The notes under the pieces are model-generated. The model had not been told where the DNA came from and searched no databases. It worked only from the letters and a program-made list of their open reading frames with translations. A program made the position numbers and the translations under genes. 64,000 bases of DNA from assembly GCF_016907275.1 (NCBI RefSeq), contig NZ_JAFBBP010000001.1:6376001-6440000 (forward strand). The letters are read 5' to 3'. Positions 38,211-45,150 of the stretch are shown here, one piece after another. Origin of the DNA: Micromonospora luteifusca (GTDB lineage Bacteria > Actinomycetota > Actinomycetes > Mycobacteriales > Micromonosporaceae). Position 1 is the first letter of the stretch. Every line of letters begins with the position of its first letter.

Positions 38211-38543
38211 TCAGCGGCCCTCGGGAACGGCCATCTCGCCCAGCAGCGACCAGTCCTCCTGCGCGACGGTGGCATTCACGATGCGCGGCGTCTCGGCCAG
38301 GTGCGGCGGCAGGGTCTCCTGCGCCGCGCGGAAGTGGGCGGACTGCACGTGAGCCCCGCCGGCCTGGTCGTCGCGGAAGGCCTCGACGAGGACGTACTCG
38401 GTCGGGTCGTCCACGCTGCGGGACCAGTCGAACCACAGGCAGCCCGGCTCGGCCCGGGTCGCCTCGGTGAACTCGGCGGCGATCTGTGGCCACCGGTCGG
38501 CGTGCTCGGGCAGGATCCGGAACTTGGCGGTAATAAAGATCAT
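38211..38543 (-). CDS. Antibiotic biosynthesis monooxygenase (ABM) domain protein
   Basis: A 110-aa single ABM-domain protein (YgiN-like dimeric alpha/beta barrel fold). The pattern MIFITAKFRILPEHADRW at the N-terminus, then EPGCLWFDWSRSVDDP and YVLVEAFRDDQAGGAHVQS, is typical. Cofactor-free relatives oxidise quinols or polyketides, and many have unknown function. It has no partner gene; it is the first gene to the left of the ATPase cluster, 37 bp away on the same strand, so read-through from that cluster is possible. Confidence 0.82.
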   Translation of the reverse strand: MIFITAKFRILPEHADRWPQIAAEFTEATRAEPGCLWFDWSRSVDDPTEYVLVEAFRDDQAGGAHVQSAHFRAAQETLPPHLAETPRIVNATVAQEDWSLLGEMAVPEGR

Positions 38544-38580
38544 GGCTCCAGGCTACGTCCTGACGGAGCCCGGGAGCCGG

Positions 38581-41500
38581 CTACCCAGACCGGCCGCCGT
38601 TCGAGTGCGCGCGGGCGATGACCTCCTCGGGGCTCAACGGCGCCTTCGGATGGTGCGTGAGGCACAGCGGGGTACGCACCTTGACGAACGAGAACCCCTC
38701 CCCGGCGGCGTAGAACTCACCGCTGTTCAGCAGGCCGATGTCCGGAAGTCGCCCACCCTTGGCCTCGGCGAGCTGGCGGGCCGCGTCAATCTGCGCGGGC
38801 GCGTTGAGGAGCCCGAAGAATTGCGTCGTCGCGTTGCCGGAGATCTGGTTGTGCAGACCCTTGGGCGCCTGGGTGGCGAAGACCAGCCCGAGCCCGTACT
38901 TACGGGCCTGTGCGGCGAGCGCGATCGAGCTGGCCGTGCAGGCCGTGGTGCCGGTCGACGGCGCGAGCGTCTGCGCCTCATCCATCACGAACAGCCCACC
39001 CAGCGGTCGATCACCGGCGGGGTGCCGCTTGATCCAGGCGAAGAGCGCCATCTGCAACTGGTTGACGAAGCTCTGCCGCTCCTGATCGGACGTGAGGCCG
39101 ACGAAGCTGATCACCGACACCCGAGCCCGCCGGCCCGGCGACGGCGTCAGCAGCAGCCCGGGGTCAGCCGGCGCACCGACCCCGCCGAAGAGTGGATCGG
39201 TGACCATCGCCGCCTTGAGAGCCTCCGCCAACTCCTCGGCGAGCTTGCCGGCACGGGCCAGCCGACTGACCCCCTCGGGCAGGTCGGCAAGGAACTCGGT
39301 GAAGCCGGGCAGACCCACCATCCCGCTTCGTGCGTATGCCTGGAGGGCCTCGGTGAGGACGGCCTTGCCCTGCTGGGCGAGCCTGCTCGACCGGTCGACG
39401 CCGGCCCGTGGCGCGAGCGCCTCCACGGCGGAGCGGACAGCCTGGTCGAACTCGTCGGGCCACTCCCGCAGCGAGGTGAAGTCGGGCAGCGGCTGGAAGC
39501 TCAACGGCCTGCCGGCGGTGACCCGGGGTGTCCACACCACCACCTCGGTGTGTGCGAGGTAGTCCGTGGCCCGTTCGGCGTCGCCGGGACCCCAGCCGCT
39601 CGGCGGCTCGGGCCACGCGTCCCCGAGCCGGGCGAGGTCGTTGTTGGGGTCGAGCACGATCGCGGAGACACCCTCCCGGGCGCACTCCTCGACCAACCGG
39701 CGGATGAGCACCGTCTTGCCCGAGCCGGACCCGGCGAACACGACGGCGTGCCGGCGCAGCGACTCCAGGGGCACCGTGAACGGGTGACCACCGTCGACGG
39801 TCTGCCCCAGCCCGACCGCCTGACCGCCGGCGCGGACCGCGACGTCGGCCGGGTCAGCGGGTACGGGCGCGGCCGACGAACCGGTCGACGGACCACCTGC
39901 CACGTCGGCGACCGGCACGTTGGTGGGGTCGGAACCGGGGCCGCCGGACGATGGCTCGCCGTCATCGGGCGTCGTCGGCGGGGCACCGCCGCGCGTCCCG
40001 TCGGGCCCGGGCAGGACCGTGCGGAACAGCTCGGTGCCGCTGGCCGGGCGACGGGCCACCAGCCACTCCTGCAGGGCCGTGGACGGCTCGGTTGCCATGG
40101 CCCGCAACGCGGCGAAGACCCGCAGGTCCGCCTCCGGCACCGCGCACCGCAGGCCGCCGGCCGCGTCGAAACCGGTCAACACCTCGGTCGTACGCTTCCC
40201 GGTCGGCCATGGACCGTTGCGCAGCAGGATCAGTCGCCGTTGTGGCAGGTCCCGGTCCAACCCTGCGAGGGTGCACGCGGCCTTGACCCGCGCGGTCACG
40301 GCGATGGCATTGGGGTGCGCGATGGCCCGGAAGCACCAGTGCGCCTCGTTCTCGGTGGCCTCGTCGAGCACCTCGATCAGCCGCCCGTGCAGCGCGGGCT
40401 TGCGCCCGGGCGGCGGATCGTACTTGTAGGTGGCGCCGGTCGGCGCCTGCTCGGCGATCCAGGCGGCCAGGCCGGCGGCGAGCAGCGGCGGCATGTGCTC
40501 GTCCTCGCCCGCCGGGTCGACGGCGGCCGACACGTCCGCGGCCTCGACCAGCTCGGCGAACCGTGCGTCCAACTCATGCAGGCGACGCTCGTCCGTCGCG
40601 GGGTCGGCGGAAGCGCCACGGACGGTGCTGACCGTCGGTGTCGACTCGGCGCCGTCGATGAGCCGGTCCAACTCGACCACCTCGTCGCTGTCCCGGCACC
40701 AGGCGAGGTGGCGGTCCACCCGGCGGAGCAGGGCGCGTGGCGTCAGGGTGGGTGCGTCGGCGAAGGCGGCGGGGGCGATCGGCCATGTGGGGTGCGGTGG
40801 CACGAAACGCGGACCCGCGAACGCGCCGGCGAGACGCTTGGCCACGATCGCCTGCCCGATCTCCGGGGTGGGGATCCGGTCCGGCAGGGTCGCCGTGCGA
40901 AAGCGGTCGGCGACCGGGGTGGGCGCGGTGCGGGTCATCAGCACCCAGGTGTCCGGCAGGCACGAGACCACGACCAGCGTGCGGCGGGTGATGTCGCGGA
41001 GCTTGAGCAGGCCGTCGGCGATCGGGCCGAGCACCTTGGCCTGGCCGTCCTCCAGCCCCTGATGGTGGTTGAGCAGCGAGGTGCTGGTCTGGGCGAAGAG
41101 CGTGTCGAGCTGGTCCACGGCGATGACCGTGGGATCCAGGGTCAGGGCCATCAGTCGCGAGATGTCCTGCACGACCTGCTGCGGGGTGCGGATCGCGGCG
41201 CTCAACCCCCAGGCCGCCCGCGCGGCCGGCTCACCCGGTTCGGAGATCAGGTGGCCGTAACCGACGTCCTGTGCCTCGAAGTCGGTGGCACCGTGCAGGA
41301 CGAGCGCCCGGGCGGTGTCCTGGGCGTCGCGCCCGACCTCCCGATCGCGCTCGCGCAGTGCCCAGATGAAGGTGTCGAGCTGGGCACGGGTCACCGGTCG
41401 GGCACCGGCGACCGCGTCGCGGACCTCCATCGGCAGGCCGAGCTGGGGGGTGAGTCGACGCAGAAAGGTCTTCAGTTGGGTGCCCCAGCCGACGTGGGTG

Positions 41501-41841
41501 CGGCCCATCCCCTCCACCAGGGCCAGGGCCACGCTCTCCCAGAACGTCTTGCCACTGACCATGTCGACCAGGAAGAAGTAGCCGCCGTCGCGTTGGATCC
41601 GTTCGCGGACCGCCCCGAGCAGGTGCGTCTTGCCGGCGCCCGCGCGGCCCTGCATGGCCACGCCGAGCGGCATGCTCGTGTCGTCGGTGCGGGCCCGCGC
41701 CACCCCGCGCAGGATCTCCGCGGCCACCTTCTCGTGCAGCTCCGGCACGTTGTGCGGGCTCGGTCGCCAGACGTCGTCCGGGGTGACCGCCGGGTTGAGA
41801 CTCACCGCTTCCAGCGCGGTTCGCTGCTCGTCAGAGATCAT
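38581..41841 (-). CDS. Large dual-ATPase protein: N-terminal AAA-type ATPase and C-terminal HerA/FtsK-like translocase
   Basis: A 1086-aa protein with two P-loop domains. The first has Walker A GRAGAGKT (65-72), a Walker B-like strand TVIAVDQLD (238-246) and a sensor strand VVVSCLPDTW, like ORC/STAND-type AAA ATPases. The second has Walker A AGSGSGKT (703-710), VLDPNNDLARLG after the first helix, Walker B LFVMDEAQ (950-957) and FATQAPKG (988-995), as in HerA/VirB4/FtsK-like DNA pumps. A Pro/Gly/Ser-rich linker (about 613-665) separates the halves. It has no signal peptide. Its start overlaps the winged-helix gene by 4 bp. Architecture and partners suggest DNA recognition and translocation, possibly in defence, but this is inference. 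Confidence 0.75.
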   Translation of the reverse strand: MISDEQRTALEAVSLNPAVTPDDVWRPSPHNVPELHEKVAAEILRGVARARTDDTSMPLGVAMQGRAGAGKTHLLGAVRERIQRDGGYFFLVDMVSGKTFWESVALALVEGMGRTHVGWGTQLKTFLRRLTPQLGLPMEVRDAVAGARPVTRAQLDTFIWALRERDREVGRDAQDTARALVLHGATDFEAQDVGYGHLISEPGEPAARAAWGLSAAIRTPQQVVQDISRLMALTLDPTVIAVDQLDTLFAQTSTSLLNHHQGLEDGQAKVLGPIADGLLKLRDITRRTLVVVSCLPDTWVLMTRTAPTPVADRFRTATLPDRIPTPEIGQAIVAKRLAGAFAGPRFVPPHPTWPIAPAAFADAPTLTPRALLRRVDRHLAWCRDSDEVVELDRLIDGAESTPTVSTVRGASADPATDERRLHELDARFAELVEAADVSAAVDPAGEDEHMPPLLAAGLAAWIAEQAPTGATYKYDPPPGRKPALHGRLIEVLDEATENEAHWCFRAIAHPNAIAVTARVKAACTLAGLDRDLPQRRLILLRNGPWPTGKRTTEVLTGFDAAGGLRCAVPEADLRVFAALRAMATEPSTALQEWLVARRPASGTELFRTVLPGPDGTRGGAPPTTPDDGEPSSGGPGSDPTNVPVADVAGGPSTGSSAAPVPADPADVAVRAGGQAVGLGQTVDGGHPFTVPLESLRRHAVVFAGSGSGKTVLIRRLVEECAREGVSAIVLDPNNDLARLGDAWPEPPSGWGPGDAERATDYLAHTEVVVWTPRVTAGRPLSFQPLPDFTSLREWPDEFDQAVRSAVEALAPRAGVDRSSRLAQQGKAVLTEALQAYARSGMVGLPGFTEFLADLPEGVSRLARAGKLAEELAEALKAAMVTDPLFGGVGAPADPGLLLTPSPGRRARVSVISFVGLTSDQERQSFVNQLQMALFAWIKRHPAGDRPLGGLFVMDEAQTLAPSTGTTACTASSIALAAQARKYGLGLVFATQAPKGLHNQISGNATTQFFGLLNAPAQIDAARQLAEAKGGRLPDIGLLNSGEFYAAGEGFSFVKVRTPLCLTHHPKAPLSPEEVIARAHSNGGRSG

Positions 41842-42566
41842 GCCGGGCCGATCGACAGGGCGTGGTTGTCCTCGTTCCCGATGCGGACGGCCGCGGCCCG
41901 GTCCCGTGCGGTCAGTGACTTGGTGTTCGCCACCGGGATGATGCGGACGTCATCCCGGCCGATCATCGCCCGCAACGCCGCGTCCAGGGCGGCCCGGTCG
42001 GTGTCGGCGAGCCGGTCCCGGACGTCGGCGAGGCCGACCCAGGCGCCCGGCGCGGTGGCCAGATCGCGGTACGCCGACCGAACCAGCGCCTCCACCTCCG
42101 CCGCCGCCGTGGGTGCCGCCGCCGTGGGTGCCGCCGCCGTTGGTGCCACCGCGGCGGGTGCCGGTGCTTCGTGCGGAGGCTTGCTGGCCGCCAGCGCCGT
42201 TGCTCCGGTCTGCTTGAAGAAGTCGCCGTGGCTGACCCGGAGCCGGTCCAGCGAGCGGTGCAGGTTGGACAGGACGACGAACAGCGACCGGGTCGTCGAG
42301 CCGCCCTGCTTCGGCGGCGTGGAGGTGTGCAGCTGACGGACCACCCGCCAGCCCTCGTCGGTCAGCTCGTGGGCGAACGGCCGGTGCGTCCGATCGGTGT
42401 CCACCAGGCCCAGGTCGACGAGCTTCGTGTTGTCCTTGCCGGTCAGCGTGAAGCCGGCCAGCTCGCGCAGCTCGACGTTGGTGAGTCGGCGTGCCTCGAC
42501 CATCAGCACCACGAGGGCGTTGATCTGGTTCGGCGTCAGGTGCGGGACGTCCGCCGGGCTCGTCAT
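41838..42566 (-). CDS. Winged-helix-like protein with Ala/Pro repeat linker (partner of the dual ATPase)
   Basis: A 242-aa protein I do not recognise by name. Residues about 8-80 look like a winged helix (TPNQINALVVLMVEARRLTNVELREL, then a KLVDLGLVDTDR wing). Residues about 138-160 are a low-complexity linker with three APTAA units encoded by 15-bp tandem repeats (42100-42144). A second small helical domain follows (about 165-242). It may bind DNA or act as an adaptor for the nuclease or the ATPase. Start and stop codons overlap both neighbours by 4 bp (ATGA), so the three products are probably made in fixed ratio. Confidence 0.7.
   Translation of the reverse strand: MTSPADVPHLTPNQINALVVLMVEARRLTNVELRELAGFTLTGKDNTKLVDLGLVDTDRTHRPFAHELTDEGWRVVRQLHTSTPPKQGGSTTRSLFVVLSNLHRSLDRLRVSHGDFFKQTGATALAASKPPHEAPAPAAVAPTAAAPTAAAPTAAAEVEALVRSAYRDLATAPGAWVGLADVRDRLADTDRAALDAALRAMIGRDDVRIIPVANTKSLTARDRAAAVRIGNEDNHALSIGPA
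42100..42144. repeat. Three 15-bp tandem repeats inside the winged-helix gene
   Basis: The unit GCCGCCGCCGTGGGT occurs at 42100-42114 and 42115-42129, and again with one change at 42130-42144. Each unit encodes APTAA-type residues on the minus strand, so copy number can change by slippage without breaking the frame. Confidence 0.85.
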
Positions 42567-43666
42567 GATGTCTCATCTCCGTGGGGGTGCGTGCCGCCCG
42601 CGCGTCGCCGGGCCAGCAGCCGACGGATCCCGTCGACCACCGCCGGCGCGTCGGTCAGCACCTGCTCGTTGGTGAAGCGAAGCACGTCCAGCCCGAGGAG
42701 TTGCAACTGCACGTCTCTCCGCCGATCGTTGGCGAAAGCGATTCGCCCACGATGCTCCGGGCCGTCCACCTCGACCGCAAGACCCTCCACGGGCCAAAAC
42801 AGATCCAGTCGGTACGCCGCACCCAGGACATGCCACTCGTAGGTCTGGTTCCACCGCCGGCCCCGCGCCCAGTCGTGCGGCGCGAGCGCGCGTTCCAACG
42901 CCTGCTCGGCGGTGCTGTCACCGCGTGGCACGCCCGCGATCGGCGGCCAGGCCAGCACCGTCGACTCCGGCTCGACGGCGGTGGCCGGAATCCGTTCGTT
43001 CGTGCTGGCCAGCTCGGCGAATCGTGCCGGCACCGGCACCGGGACCGAGCGCACCCGGTCGGCGTGGCGCAGCGGGCCACCGGCCAACCACACCGTGAAG
43101 CCGCCGTGCCGCACGAGCCACTCGGCGGCGGCCACCAGCGTCCGCTCGGCGTCCGCATCCAGGTCAGGCAGGGCCACGACGAGTACGCAGCTCTCCCGGT
43201 CGTACGCCTCGGCGATCACCCGGGCGAGCCCGGCGGCGCGTACCCCCGGGGCGAAGCGGGACCGGCCGGCGGGGCGGCGCCGACCGCGCAGCCCACGCTC
43301 GGCGAGGTCGGCGAGGAACGGGCCGAAGTGCCGGGAGCGGGCGGCGGTACGGGCCGCGAGGGCGCGCACCGCCGCCACGCCGAGCGTGCCCTCGCTGTCG
43401 AAACGGTCGGCCCCTGCCAGCCAGCGGGGAAACATCGCGAGGGCTGCGGTGTCCAGTTGGTCGAGCAGGGTGTCCACGAGGTCACCGAGCGGACCCGCCA
43501 CCGTGGGCCGGTAGTGCACGATCGCGGGCGCTGCCGGTGGCAACGGGTCCAGTGCCACCCGCAGCAGCTCCGGGTCGACGTCCGGCAGGTGACTCACTCG
43601 CCGCGTCGGCGGGGTAGCCCACCAGGCCCCGTTGGCGTCTACGTCGACCCAAACGGGCTGCGCCAT
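42563..43666 (-). CDS. DUF559-type endonuclease (PD-(D/E)XK / Vsr-like fold)
   Basis: A 367-aa protein. The C-terminal 115 residues carry the DUF559 signature: Asp288 in YRLDLFW, then the E-x-D pair Glu299/Asp301 in LAVEVDGPEH, and DRRRDVQLQLLGLDVLRF followed by TNEQVL. A supporting Glu is in TAEQALERAL near residue 254. This fold is related to very-short-patch repair and restriction endonucleases. The N-terminal 240 residues are unrecognised and contain several Trp/Pro-rich segments. It begins 65 bp after the WGR gene and its stop overlaps the winged-helix start by 4 bp. Confidence 0.8.
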   Translation of the reverse strand: MAQPVWVDVDANGAWWATPPTRRVSHLPDVDPELLRVALDPLPPAAPAIVHYRPTVAGPLGDLVDTLLDQLDTAALAMFPRWLAGADRFDSEGTLGVAAVRALAARTAARSRHFGPFLADLAERGLRGRRRPAGRSRFAPGVRAAGLARVIAEAYDRESCVLVVALPDLDADAERTLVAAAEWLVRHGGFTVWLAGGPLRHADRVRSVPVPVPARFAELASTNERIPATAVEPESTVLAWPPIAGVPRGDSTAEQALERALAPHDWARGRRWNQTYEWHVLGAAYRLDLFWPVEGLAVEVDGPEHRGRIAFANDRRRDVQLQLLGLDVLRFTNEQVLTDAPAVVDGIRRLLARRRAGGTHPHGDETS

Positions 43667-43731
43667 GCCGGCACCCTACGACACGGGCGTGCGCGACCGG
43701 GACCCCCTCGGCAGCGGTTGCGATCGGTTGC

Positions 43732-45150
43732 TCAGCGCAGACGGCGGATGTCGCCGAACGCCCGGTAGAACCCGCCACGGCTGGACTCGCGGACCTCGGT
43801 CACCAGATAGCGGGCGCCCGGCTCGCGGATCCCCTTGGGGAACTGCACCGACCAGTCACGCCGGTAGCCGTCGGACAGCACCTGAACCCGCATCCGCCCC
43901 CGATCGTCGAGGCACTGCACGATCACGCCGCCGCCCGCGTCGCTGGTCACCTCGACGATCGTCGGCTCGACCGGCCGAGGCGCCTGGCGGGGAGCCTTGA
44001 TGTCGCGCACCGCGGGCACATCCCCGGCCTGGGCCGCCCGGATCGCCGGCTCGCTCGCGTCGATGCAGGCGAGATGGCCGCCGGTGGTGACAACATAGAG
44101 CCGGTCGTCGTGATACTGCATCGAGTACGCCGAGCCGCAGCCGGTGCCGAGTTTCCACAACCGGGTGCCCGCCGCGTCGAAGCAGTAGATCGAGGACTGG
44201 CTGTCACCAGCGAAGACGTACCGGCCGCCCTCCGCCGTGGCGCAGGAGAACACCGGGGCGTCGCACAGGTAGCTGCGTTCGAACCGACCGGCCTTGGACA
44301 GGCGCACCACCTCACGGGTGCCAGTTCCGGCGAAGACGCTGCCGTGCTCCTGCCAGCCGAAGAGCACCGAACCGGTCCTGGTGTGCCACAGTTCGCGGCC
44401 GGTACGCCACTCGTAGCCGGTCACCCCCTGCGAATGGCCGTGGTAGATCGCGTCGGTGTCGCACCGCACCATCCAGGCCGAGCGGCCCCGCCCGGGCCTG
44501 CGCCACAGGAACTCGTCCTCGTGGTCGACCGCGGTGATCCCGCCGTCGGCGTCCGAGACGCCCAGGACACCGTCGTGGATGTCCAGCCAGTAGATGTCGA
44601 TCTCCGGAGCGATCGCGTACGCCACCCGGGGGACCTTCCCGGAGAGGTCGTAGACGTTGCCGTCATCGCATCCGGCGTAAATCCAGGCGTCGTCGGCGAC
44701 GATGCACTTCACGCCGTCGGGGAGGCGGACCTGGCTGCGCACCTGGGCGTCGTGGTCGAGCGTGGTGATCACACCGTGCTCGTTGCCGACCATGCAGTGC
44801 CGCCCGTCGACGAAGATGCCGAAGGCGGGGGCGCCGGAGTCGTAACGCCAGAGCACCGGTGCGGTGTGGGCGGTGGAGCGGGTGCTGACGATCTGCCGTC
44901 GGGAGACGGTGCGCTTCTGTCGGACGCCGGGGACCGCCGGTGCATAGCCCTTGCGGACCTTCTCCCCGATCTTCTTCGCCGCGGCTGCCCGGGCCCGCGC
45001 ATTGTCCGGATAGGCGCTCGCCTTGACCTGCCCCTGGTCGCCGATCCGACCGAAGCGCACGGTCAGTGTGGCATCGTCGACGCTGACCTCGTAAAACTTG
45101 TGCGCACCGTCCACTTCGGACAGTTCGAGGTAGGTCGTCTCCTGGGACAT
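43732..45150 (-). CDS. WGR domain protein with PQQ-like beta-propeller
   Basis: A 472-aa protein. Residues about 5-75 match a WGR domain, with FGRIGDQGQV in place of the WGR motif; in PARPs and bacterial proteins this domain contacts DNA ends or nucleic acid. Residues about 95-470 form a WD40/PQQ-type propeller with repeated blades such as GNEHGVITTLDHDAQV, YVFAGDSQSSIYCFDAAG and LYVVTTGGHLACIDAS. The protein has no signal peptide and is probably cytoplasmic. GGAGGTTCCC precedes the ATG. It is the first gene of a leftward run with the DUF559 nuclease 65 bp downstream, so it may be a DNA-sensing component of that system, or an unrelated neighbour. Confidence 0.78.
   Translation of the reverse strand: MSQETTYLELSEVDGAHKFYEVSVDDATLTVRFGRIGDQGQVKASAYPDNARARAAAAKKIGEKVRKGYAPAVPGVRQKRTVSRRQIVSTRSTAHTAPVLWRYDSGAPAFGIFVDGRHCMVGNEHGVITTLDHDAQVRSQVRLPDGVKCIVADDAWIYAGCDDGNVYDLSGKVPRVAYAIAPEIDIYWLDIHDGVLGVSDADGGITAVDHEDEFLWRRPGRGRSAWMVRCDTDAIYHGHSQGVTGYEWRTGRELWHTRTGSVLFGWQEHGSVFAGTGTREVVRLSKAGRFERSYLCDAPVFSCATAEGGRYVFAGDSQSSIYCFDAAGTRLWKLGTGCGSAYSMQYHDDRLYVVTTGGHLACIDASEPAIRAAQAGDVPAVRDIKAPRQAPRPVEPTIVEVTSDAGGGVIVQCLDDRGRMRVQVLSDGYRRDWSVQFPKGIREPGARYLVTEVRESSRGGFYRAFGDIRRLR

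Follow-up and report, generated by a model that had tools for sequence, protein, structure and literature searches.

Three overlapping genes of Micromonospora luteifusca encode a predicted nuclease of the DUF559 family, a winged-helix protein and an ATPase in which an AAA half is fused to a HerA half. They lie in a 64,000-nucleotide (nt) stretch of assembly GCF_016907275.1 (contig NZ_JAFBBP010000001.1, positions 6,376,001-6,440,000), which we call the window and whose positions are used below. The trio is a conserved, patchily distributed and horizontally spread unit that occurs in unrelated positions, and we consider it fairly probable that it is a self-contained anti-invader unit of the predicted "HerA/FtsK capture" type. 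The trio, its two resident flanking genes and the inserted stretch are the following (aa, amino acids).

38581-41841, minus strand: AAA–HerA ATPase, open reading frame of 1086 aa
41838-42566, minus strand: winged-helix protein, open reading frame of 242 aa
42563-43666, minus strand: DUF559 nuclease, open reading frame of 367 aa
43732-45150, minus strand: WGR and beta-propeller gene, open reading frame of 472 aa; resident left flank, outside the unit
38211-38543, minus strand: ABM-type monooxygenase gene, 110 aa (PF03992, 7.3e-24); resident right flank
38557-43731, no strand: inserted stretch as judged from the empty sites in L052 and L068

The open reading frames agree with the same-strand run described in the first-pass annotation of this DNA, with overlaps of 4 base pairs (bp) at both trio junctions (DUF559/winged helix and winged helix/ATPase) and a gap of 65 bp between the WGR gene and the DUF559 gene. 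That annotation had also made the WGR protein the DNA-end sensor of the system, a role that we could not maintain, as the true unit is 38581-43666, the trio without the WGR gene. The full-length WGR/propeller gene (above 800 bits) was found in 41 of 61 genomes of the genus, and 22 of those 41 have no ATPase match, for which we used a threshold of 400 bits. Eight of the 27 ATPase-bearing genus genomes (G008, G012, G014, G017, G018, G037, G046, and G054) lack the full-length WGR gene, and 8 of the 61, among them the genome of the window, have the trio and the WGR gene next to each other. In two empty sites, in L052 (G053) and L068 (G055), the 110-aa monooxygenase gene comes immediately after the WGR gene. 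The alignment to these sites breaks at the WGR stop codon (43730-43732) and restarts at 38556, which leaves 13 bp to the 110-aa gene; the inserted stretch of ∼5.17 kb thus corresponds to the trio. Since the WGR gene is widespread without the ATPase and the trio alone is inserted at the empty sites, the WGR protein is ruled out as a component of the unit.

The empty sites are compatible with both a gain of the trio and its precise loss. No target duplication was seen in the alignment to them, and no repeat pair joins the two insert ends among 20 of the 21 direct families and the 23 inverted pairs listed. The G+C content gives no anomaly either (0.729 for the trio versus 0.709 for the window). 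ATPase matches above 400 bits occur in 27 of the 61 genomes of the genus and in 4 of 40 others. Across the phylum, a profile of the AAA half matched 4 of 296 genomes, one of them the window's own. By these counts, the trio is patchily distributed.

We scanned named genomes with patterns derived from the HerA half and confirmed 494 relatives, of which the best 80, all with actinobacterial titles and with close Micromonospora relatives over-represented, were kept and give the partner counts below; gene calls came from a simple script based on codon usage, with profile checks on six frames. In 78 of the 80 loci, the winged-helix gene immediately precedes the ATPase gene on the same strand, the other two (L089 and L099) being cut by contig ends, and a 4-bp overlap joins the two genes in 52 of 70 measured pairs. 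The third gene varies. A DUF559 family member accompanies this core in 60 loci (as a remnant only in L096), a trypsin protein in 10, and neither in 10. The last group consists of three loci at contig ends (L089, L091, and L099), three from Kribbella, three from Pseudonocardia and one from Mycobacterium. In the three Kribbella loci, the PADLOC candidates PDC-M02A (1.8e-49 to 2.9e-66) and PDC-M02B (2.6e-69 to 4.9e-98) lie directly upstream. Distant relatives of M02B occur in 2 of 101 genomes that have no strong ATPase match, so PDC-M02 also occurs without the core.

The trypsin protein of the ten loci has 1291-1368 aa and combines a trypsin-like domain, a STAND/AAA_16-type P-loop ATPase region and WD40 repeats; Trypsin_2 was matched above cut-off in two members (1e-8 and 4.3e-13), and the STAND/AAA_16 region in one of two. 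A Trypco1 neighbor is present in 8 of the 10 loci (PF19493, 1.3e-17 in the Micromonospora locus L032), and both of these genes are transcribed divergently from the winged-helix gene. DUF559 homologues above 100 bits occur in 21 of 101 genomes, all beside the core (in G014 split over two contigs), and the nine full-length copies of the trypsin protein in the same 101 genomes are all beside the core, in loci that have no DUF559 gene. Three further matches to the trypsin protein (33-35% identity, P-loop part only) fall in other proteins.

On a FastTree phylogeny of the ATPase (86 rows, root not inferred, long branches for Methylobacterium, Tsukamurella and L138), the partner labels require 5 changes, against a minimum of 4 and a shuffled mean of 20.3, with 0 of 200 shuffles as low. 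The 12 trypsin rows form one group and the three PDC-M02 rows another, both with starred support. As this clustering also follows from close relatedness, it speaks for few exchanges rather than frequent ones. DUF559 is found in the chosen outgroup and in both deep branches and is thus probably the older state.

Some single loci depart from these arrangements. One (L040:9437-9601, in G060), a copy that has either decayed or been put to another use, keeps the winged-helix and ATPase genes with a DUF559 remnant; genes for cytochrome P450, an AMP-binding protein and acyl-CoA dehydrogenase lie next to it. In another (L051:7944-9656, in G037), a 570-aa protein with nSTAND3 matched only at 0.032 occupies the DUF559 position, and a 511-aa relative of it lies beside a DUF559 gene in L135.

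The Pfam matches above cut-offs are WGR (9.7e-15), DUF559 (3.4e-9), DUF87, the HerA central domain (1.3e-7, residues 686-740 of the ATPase), and AAA_30 (5.5e-7, residues 62-88). The ATPase consists of an AAA half (∼1-395), an alpha/beta middle domain (414-610), a disordered linker (613-672) and a HerA half (672-1072), and the family has a mean column identity of 53% over 54 rows. The motifs and the 1086-aa AAA/HerA fusion noted before are all present, at the positions below.

41626-41649, minus strand: Walker A GRAGAGKT of the AAA half (residues 65-72), core letters invariant in 54 rows
39712-39735, minus strand: Walker A AGSGSGKT of the HerA half (residues 703-710), core letters invariant in 54 rows
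38869-38994, minus strand: HerA Walker B LFVMDEAQ (residues 950-957) with Arg980 and Gln991; its core letters and both residues invariant in 54/54 rows
40012-40602, minus strand: middle domain (residues 414-610), with a helix/strand order resembling a restriction-endonuclease core without D...ExK
42764-42805, minus strand: predicted catalytic stretch Asp288...Glu299-x-Asp301 of the DUF559 protein

We assign Arg980 as the putative HerA/FtsK Arg finger and Gln991 as the putative sensor-1 Gln, following a criterion given in PMC10853773. The modeled fold of the HerA half resembles those of HerA and DndH-C. The AAA half carries at Walker B (DQxD) an invariant Gln at the position usually held by Glu, a feature absent from the first-pass annotation. 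Placement of this half with Orc/Cdc6 could not be established, as profile searches against the PDB returned weak general AAA matches only; in Pfam, AAA_16 and NACHT stay below their cut-offs. For the middle domain as an inactive nuclease, there is likewise no convincing profile match, although the order of helices and strands is compatible. Orc-like and restriction endonuclease-like entries are absent from the fold-match list of the ATPase, a list filled by the HerA half and uninformative on the other domains.

The acidic residues Asp288, Glu299 and Asp301, pointed out in the first reading, are kept in 80, 80 and 81 of 82 DUF559 rows, respectively, and the protein profile matches the endonuclease-like protein 3hrl (9.2e-9). 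Judged by its residues alone, the protein is likely an active nuclease. Its residues 1-270 (42857-43666) form a large N-terminal region without a Pfam match.

The 242-aa protein, earlier called winged-helix-like, is a winged helix by structure model and fold match, with a MarR/TubR/RosR-like N-terminal domain; in its C-terminal half, the order of the elements is suggestive of a second winged helix. No Pfam family was found for it, nor a convincing one for 17 relatives (best 0.0022, in a single member), and its named homologues are all Micromonospora among the 120 listed. The family is more divergent than the ATPase, with a mean column identity of 30% (59 rows) versus 53%, the two row sets overlapping without being identical, and this divergence fits what is expected of a recognition subunit. 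Matches of the family profile to calmodulin-like PDB sequences (best 2e-6) were set aside as a probable artefact of low-information profile matches, because the structure model is a winged helix and not EF-hands.

The trio reaches beyond Actinomycetota, as pMaq22A_1p of Methylobacterium aquaticum (Alphaproteobacteria) has all three genes in an identical arrangement, with profile E-values of 9.9e-36, 8.8e-29, and 8.5e-172. In Tsukamurella tyrosinosolvens (L150:6293-11261), the trio, with both 4-bp overlaps, lies in an island between rpsQ and rplN in the ribosomal-protein cluster. That record is labeled as a plasmid, and a PIN/VapB pair and a DEAD-box helicase lie nearby.

The class to which we assign the trio was predicted by Rakesh, Aravind and Krishnan (2024; PMC10853773), who describe neighborhoods of an Orc/Cdc6 ATPase, an inactive and an active restriction endonuclease, HerA/FtsK and a winged helix, arranged in one or several polypeptides, distinguish two nuclease families and propose that these intercept invader DNA. 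The trio shares with these Orc/Cdc6-coupled systems the combination of HerA/FtsK, AAA+ ATPase, winged helix and nuclease in a compact mobile neighborhood, and its HerA half carries their hallmark of putative Arg finger and sensor-1 Gln. It differs in having DUF559 as its nuclease and, among its relatives, trypsin–STAND–WD40 or PDC-M02 partners; the terms DUF559 and trypsin are absent from the main text of that paper. As the paper allows for varied polypeptide arrangements, the AAA–HerA fusion by itself is no novelty.

Other HerA systems share single features with the trio. The HerA half has the modeled fold of DndH-C, yet no DndF, DndG or DndH appears among the PADLOC matches up to an E-value of 0.1. 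Compared with SIR2–HerA (Nezha) and DUF4297–HerA, the trio adds an AAA half and a winged-helix subunit, and neither SIR2 nor DUF4297 was matched by Pfam or PADLOC in the four proteins. Archaeal and Deinococcus HerA–NurA also pair a HerA motor with a nuclease, but in the Pfam scan the nuclease of the trio is DUF559 and not NurA, and its HerA half forms one polypeptide with an AAA half and a middle domain. BREX-related capture (BRC) systems, which according to Rakesh and Krishnan (2026; PMC12839542) have seven components including PglZ, DUF6079 and DUF4007, likewise contain HerA with an AAA+ ATPase and a winged-helix protein; none of those three components was matched in the four proteins by Pfam or PADLOC. 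The trypsin clade, with its Trypco1 and trypsin proteins, is reminiscent of the Trypco1/trypsin NTP-dependent conflict systems with VMAP, iSTAND, vWA and GTPase partners (Kaur et al. 2020; PMC7159879), although a HerA core is not among the partners in the passages describing them, and "HerA" occurs once elsewhere in that paper.

PADLOC gave only part-matches, namely mad8 (1.4e-22, HerA half of the ATPase) and generic HerA (4e-11), and MADS was rejected because no other model of the mad1-mad8 set matched any of the four proteins. Every NCBIfam match is far below cut-off. No named system with this gene set thus emerged, as the first reading had stated. Among the papers listed, we found none that describes the gene set or the protease exchange. 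The two listed for HerA with DUF559 look unrelated, and no title or abstract among those listed for HerA with Trypco, mad8/MADS or antiphage winged helix, or for DUF559 with antiphage, describes the gene set; for PDC-M02, no description was found in the literature searched. The earlier label "undescribed" therefore holds for the gene set with DUF559, as far as we could find, and not for the class of system, already predicted in PMC10853773.

For a unit of the HerA/FtsK capture type, we propose that the winged-helix protein, perhaps as a dimer, and the AAA half would recognize DNA that is foreign or has been wrongly processed. The AAA half would bind ATP and act as a gate, and it may hydrolyze ATP poorly, as suspected from the Gln that stands in for the Walker B Glu. 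The HerA half would engage the duplex, presumably as a hexameric ring, pump it and pass it to the DUF559 nuclease, which would cut the DNA handed over. Because one clade keeps the core with a protease-type partner, the core may be mainly a DNA-engagement sensor that fires the attached effector and not a mere DNA feeder. It is conceivable, and we offer this tentatively, that winged helix, AAA and HerA form an interchangeable DNA-sensing chassis, wired by lineage to DUF559, to PDC-M02A/B or to trypsin–STAND–WD40 with Trypco1, in which engagement of invader DNA leads to DNA cutting or to a proteolytic, possibly suicidal, response.

The protease-linked loci could instead hold a separate conflict system that merely adjoins the winged-helix–ATPase pair, the core then being nuclease-specific. 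The divergent transcription of the trypsin and Trypco1 genes, which places them outside the core operon, is consistent with this; the absence of any orphan among the nine full-length copies, in loci that have no DUF559 gene, and the single group of trypsin rows on the tree argue against it, and we think such mere adjacency quite unlikely. The combination of HerA and nuclease would also suit a HerA–NurA-like machine for DNA-end processing or repair, kept by some lineages for host DNA maintenance, with HerA as the pump, DUF559 replacing NurA, and the winged helix and AAA half as regulators. This too seems unlikely to us, given that the trio is missing from most relatives, that the sites in L052 and L068 are cleanly empty, and that a resection machine should not tolerate a clade-wide protease–STAND–WD40 protein in the position of its nuclease. 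A selfish or plasmid-derived unit of segregation or transfer, in which a TubR-like binder, a coupling-protein-like pump and a nuclease spread a mobile element, is in our judgment very unlikely. Only 3 of 72,556 plasmid records match, one of them of 11.8 Mb, and the insert ends share no repeat pair among the listed families, no integrase search having been made. Carriage by phages or viruses was rejected, as 0 of 50,697 phage records match and none of the 44 stretches of viral contigs that fit a pattern was confirmed as a relative.

Several observations weigh against an accessory defense unit of the capture class. In class assignment, the trio agrees with the prediction in its HerA hallmarks, winged helix and nuclease residues, but neither the Orc/Cdc6 clade nor the inactive-nuclease insert was established. 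The Methylobacterium ATPase has 275 homologues, and most of the named ones are Methylobacterium among the 120 listed; the gene may be near-fixed in that genus, which counts against a purely accessory role. The three Pseudonocardia loci and the Mycobacterium locus (L105, L123, L131, and L145) have the core without a recognizable partner. No defense island is apparent around the window copy, the six nearest scanned neighbors being a monooxygenase, kinase, trypsin, glycoside hydrolase, acetamidase and polysaccharide deacetylase, with generic PADLOC matches only, in two of them. Finally, among 10 large neighbors picked by hand from six other loci, 5 have no PADLOC match at 1e-10. The other 5 match kinase models (2), a subtilase model, mad3 (4.3e-52) and a beta-galactosidase-containing model, and these neighbors neither show nor exclude defense islands. 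A setting in defense islands is not clear.

In L131 and L145, small genes of no assigned family lie upstream of the core, and L050 (G092) has a winged-helix–ATPase pair without a recognizable adjoining effector. In the five effector-less pairs (L050, L105, L123, L131, and L145), either the core works alone or its partner went unrecognized.

A -10-like element precedes the trio.

43673-43678, minus strand: TAGGGT, 6 nt before the DUF559 start codon

In the window's clade, TAnnnT stands 5-8 nt before an ATG, which is the called DUF559 start or in frame close to it, in 19 of 21 loci, many of them closely related; the exceptions are L078 and L080, whose contig starts within DUF559. It is kept despite differing 5' flanks (for example in L077, L081, L085, L088, and L090), and the putative promoter therefore probably belongs to the trio. 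Outside the clade, it was seen in 4 of 49 loci, a partial control because the 800-nt stretches used may exclude the DUF559 start. A scan for sigma-70 consensus promoters and terminators found nothing at the trio. Sequence conservation thus suggests that TAGGGT would serve as the trio's own leaderless promoter.

Among the neighbors of other loci, a 533-aa protein in Nonomuraea (L139:6336-7937) matches the PADLOC models mad3 (4.3e-52) and mad8 (7e-26). Adjacent genes of ∼451-468 aa and 101 aa are found repeatedly, near L043 (8412-10069), L044, L062 and L038, the 451-aa protein of L043 having no Pfam or PADLOC match.

The trio is a compact three-gene candidate defense unit of Actinomycetota and Alphaproteobacteria that is unnamed by PADLOC and NCBIfam. 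What is new here is most likely its composition, of which we found no report, and the natural replacement, in one clade, of the nuclease by a protein of protease type, the HerA/FtsK capture class itself having been predicted already. HerA-type motors recur in antiphage systems and, to our knowledge, whether they act as feeders or as sensors is unsettled in general. This question becomes directly testable through natural variants of a conserved motor, which adjoins a nuclease in the majority of lineages and, in one clade, a protein of protease type.

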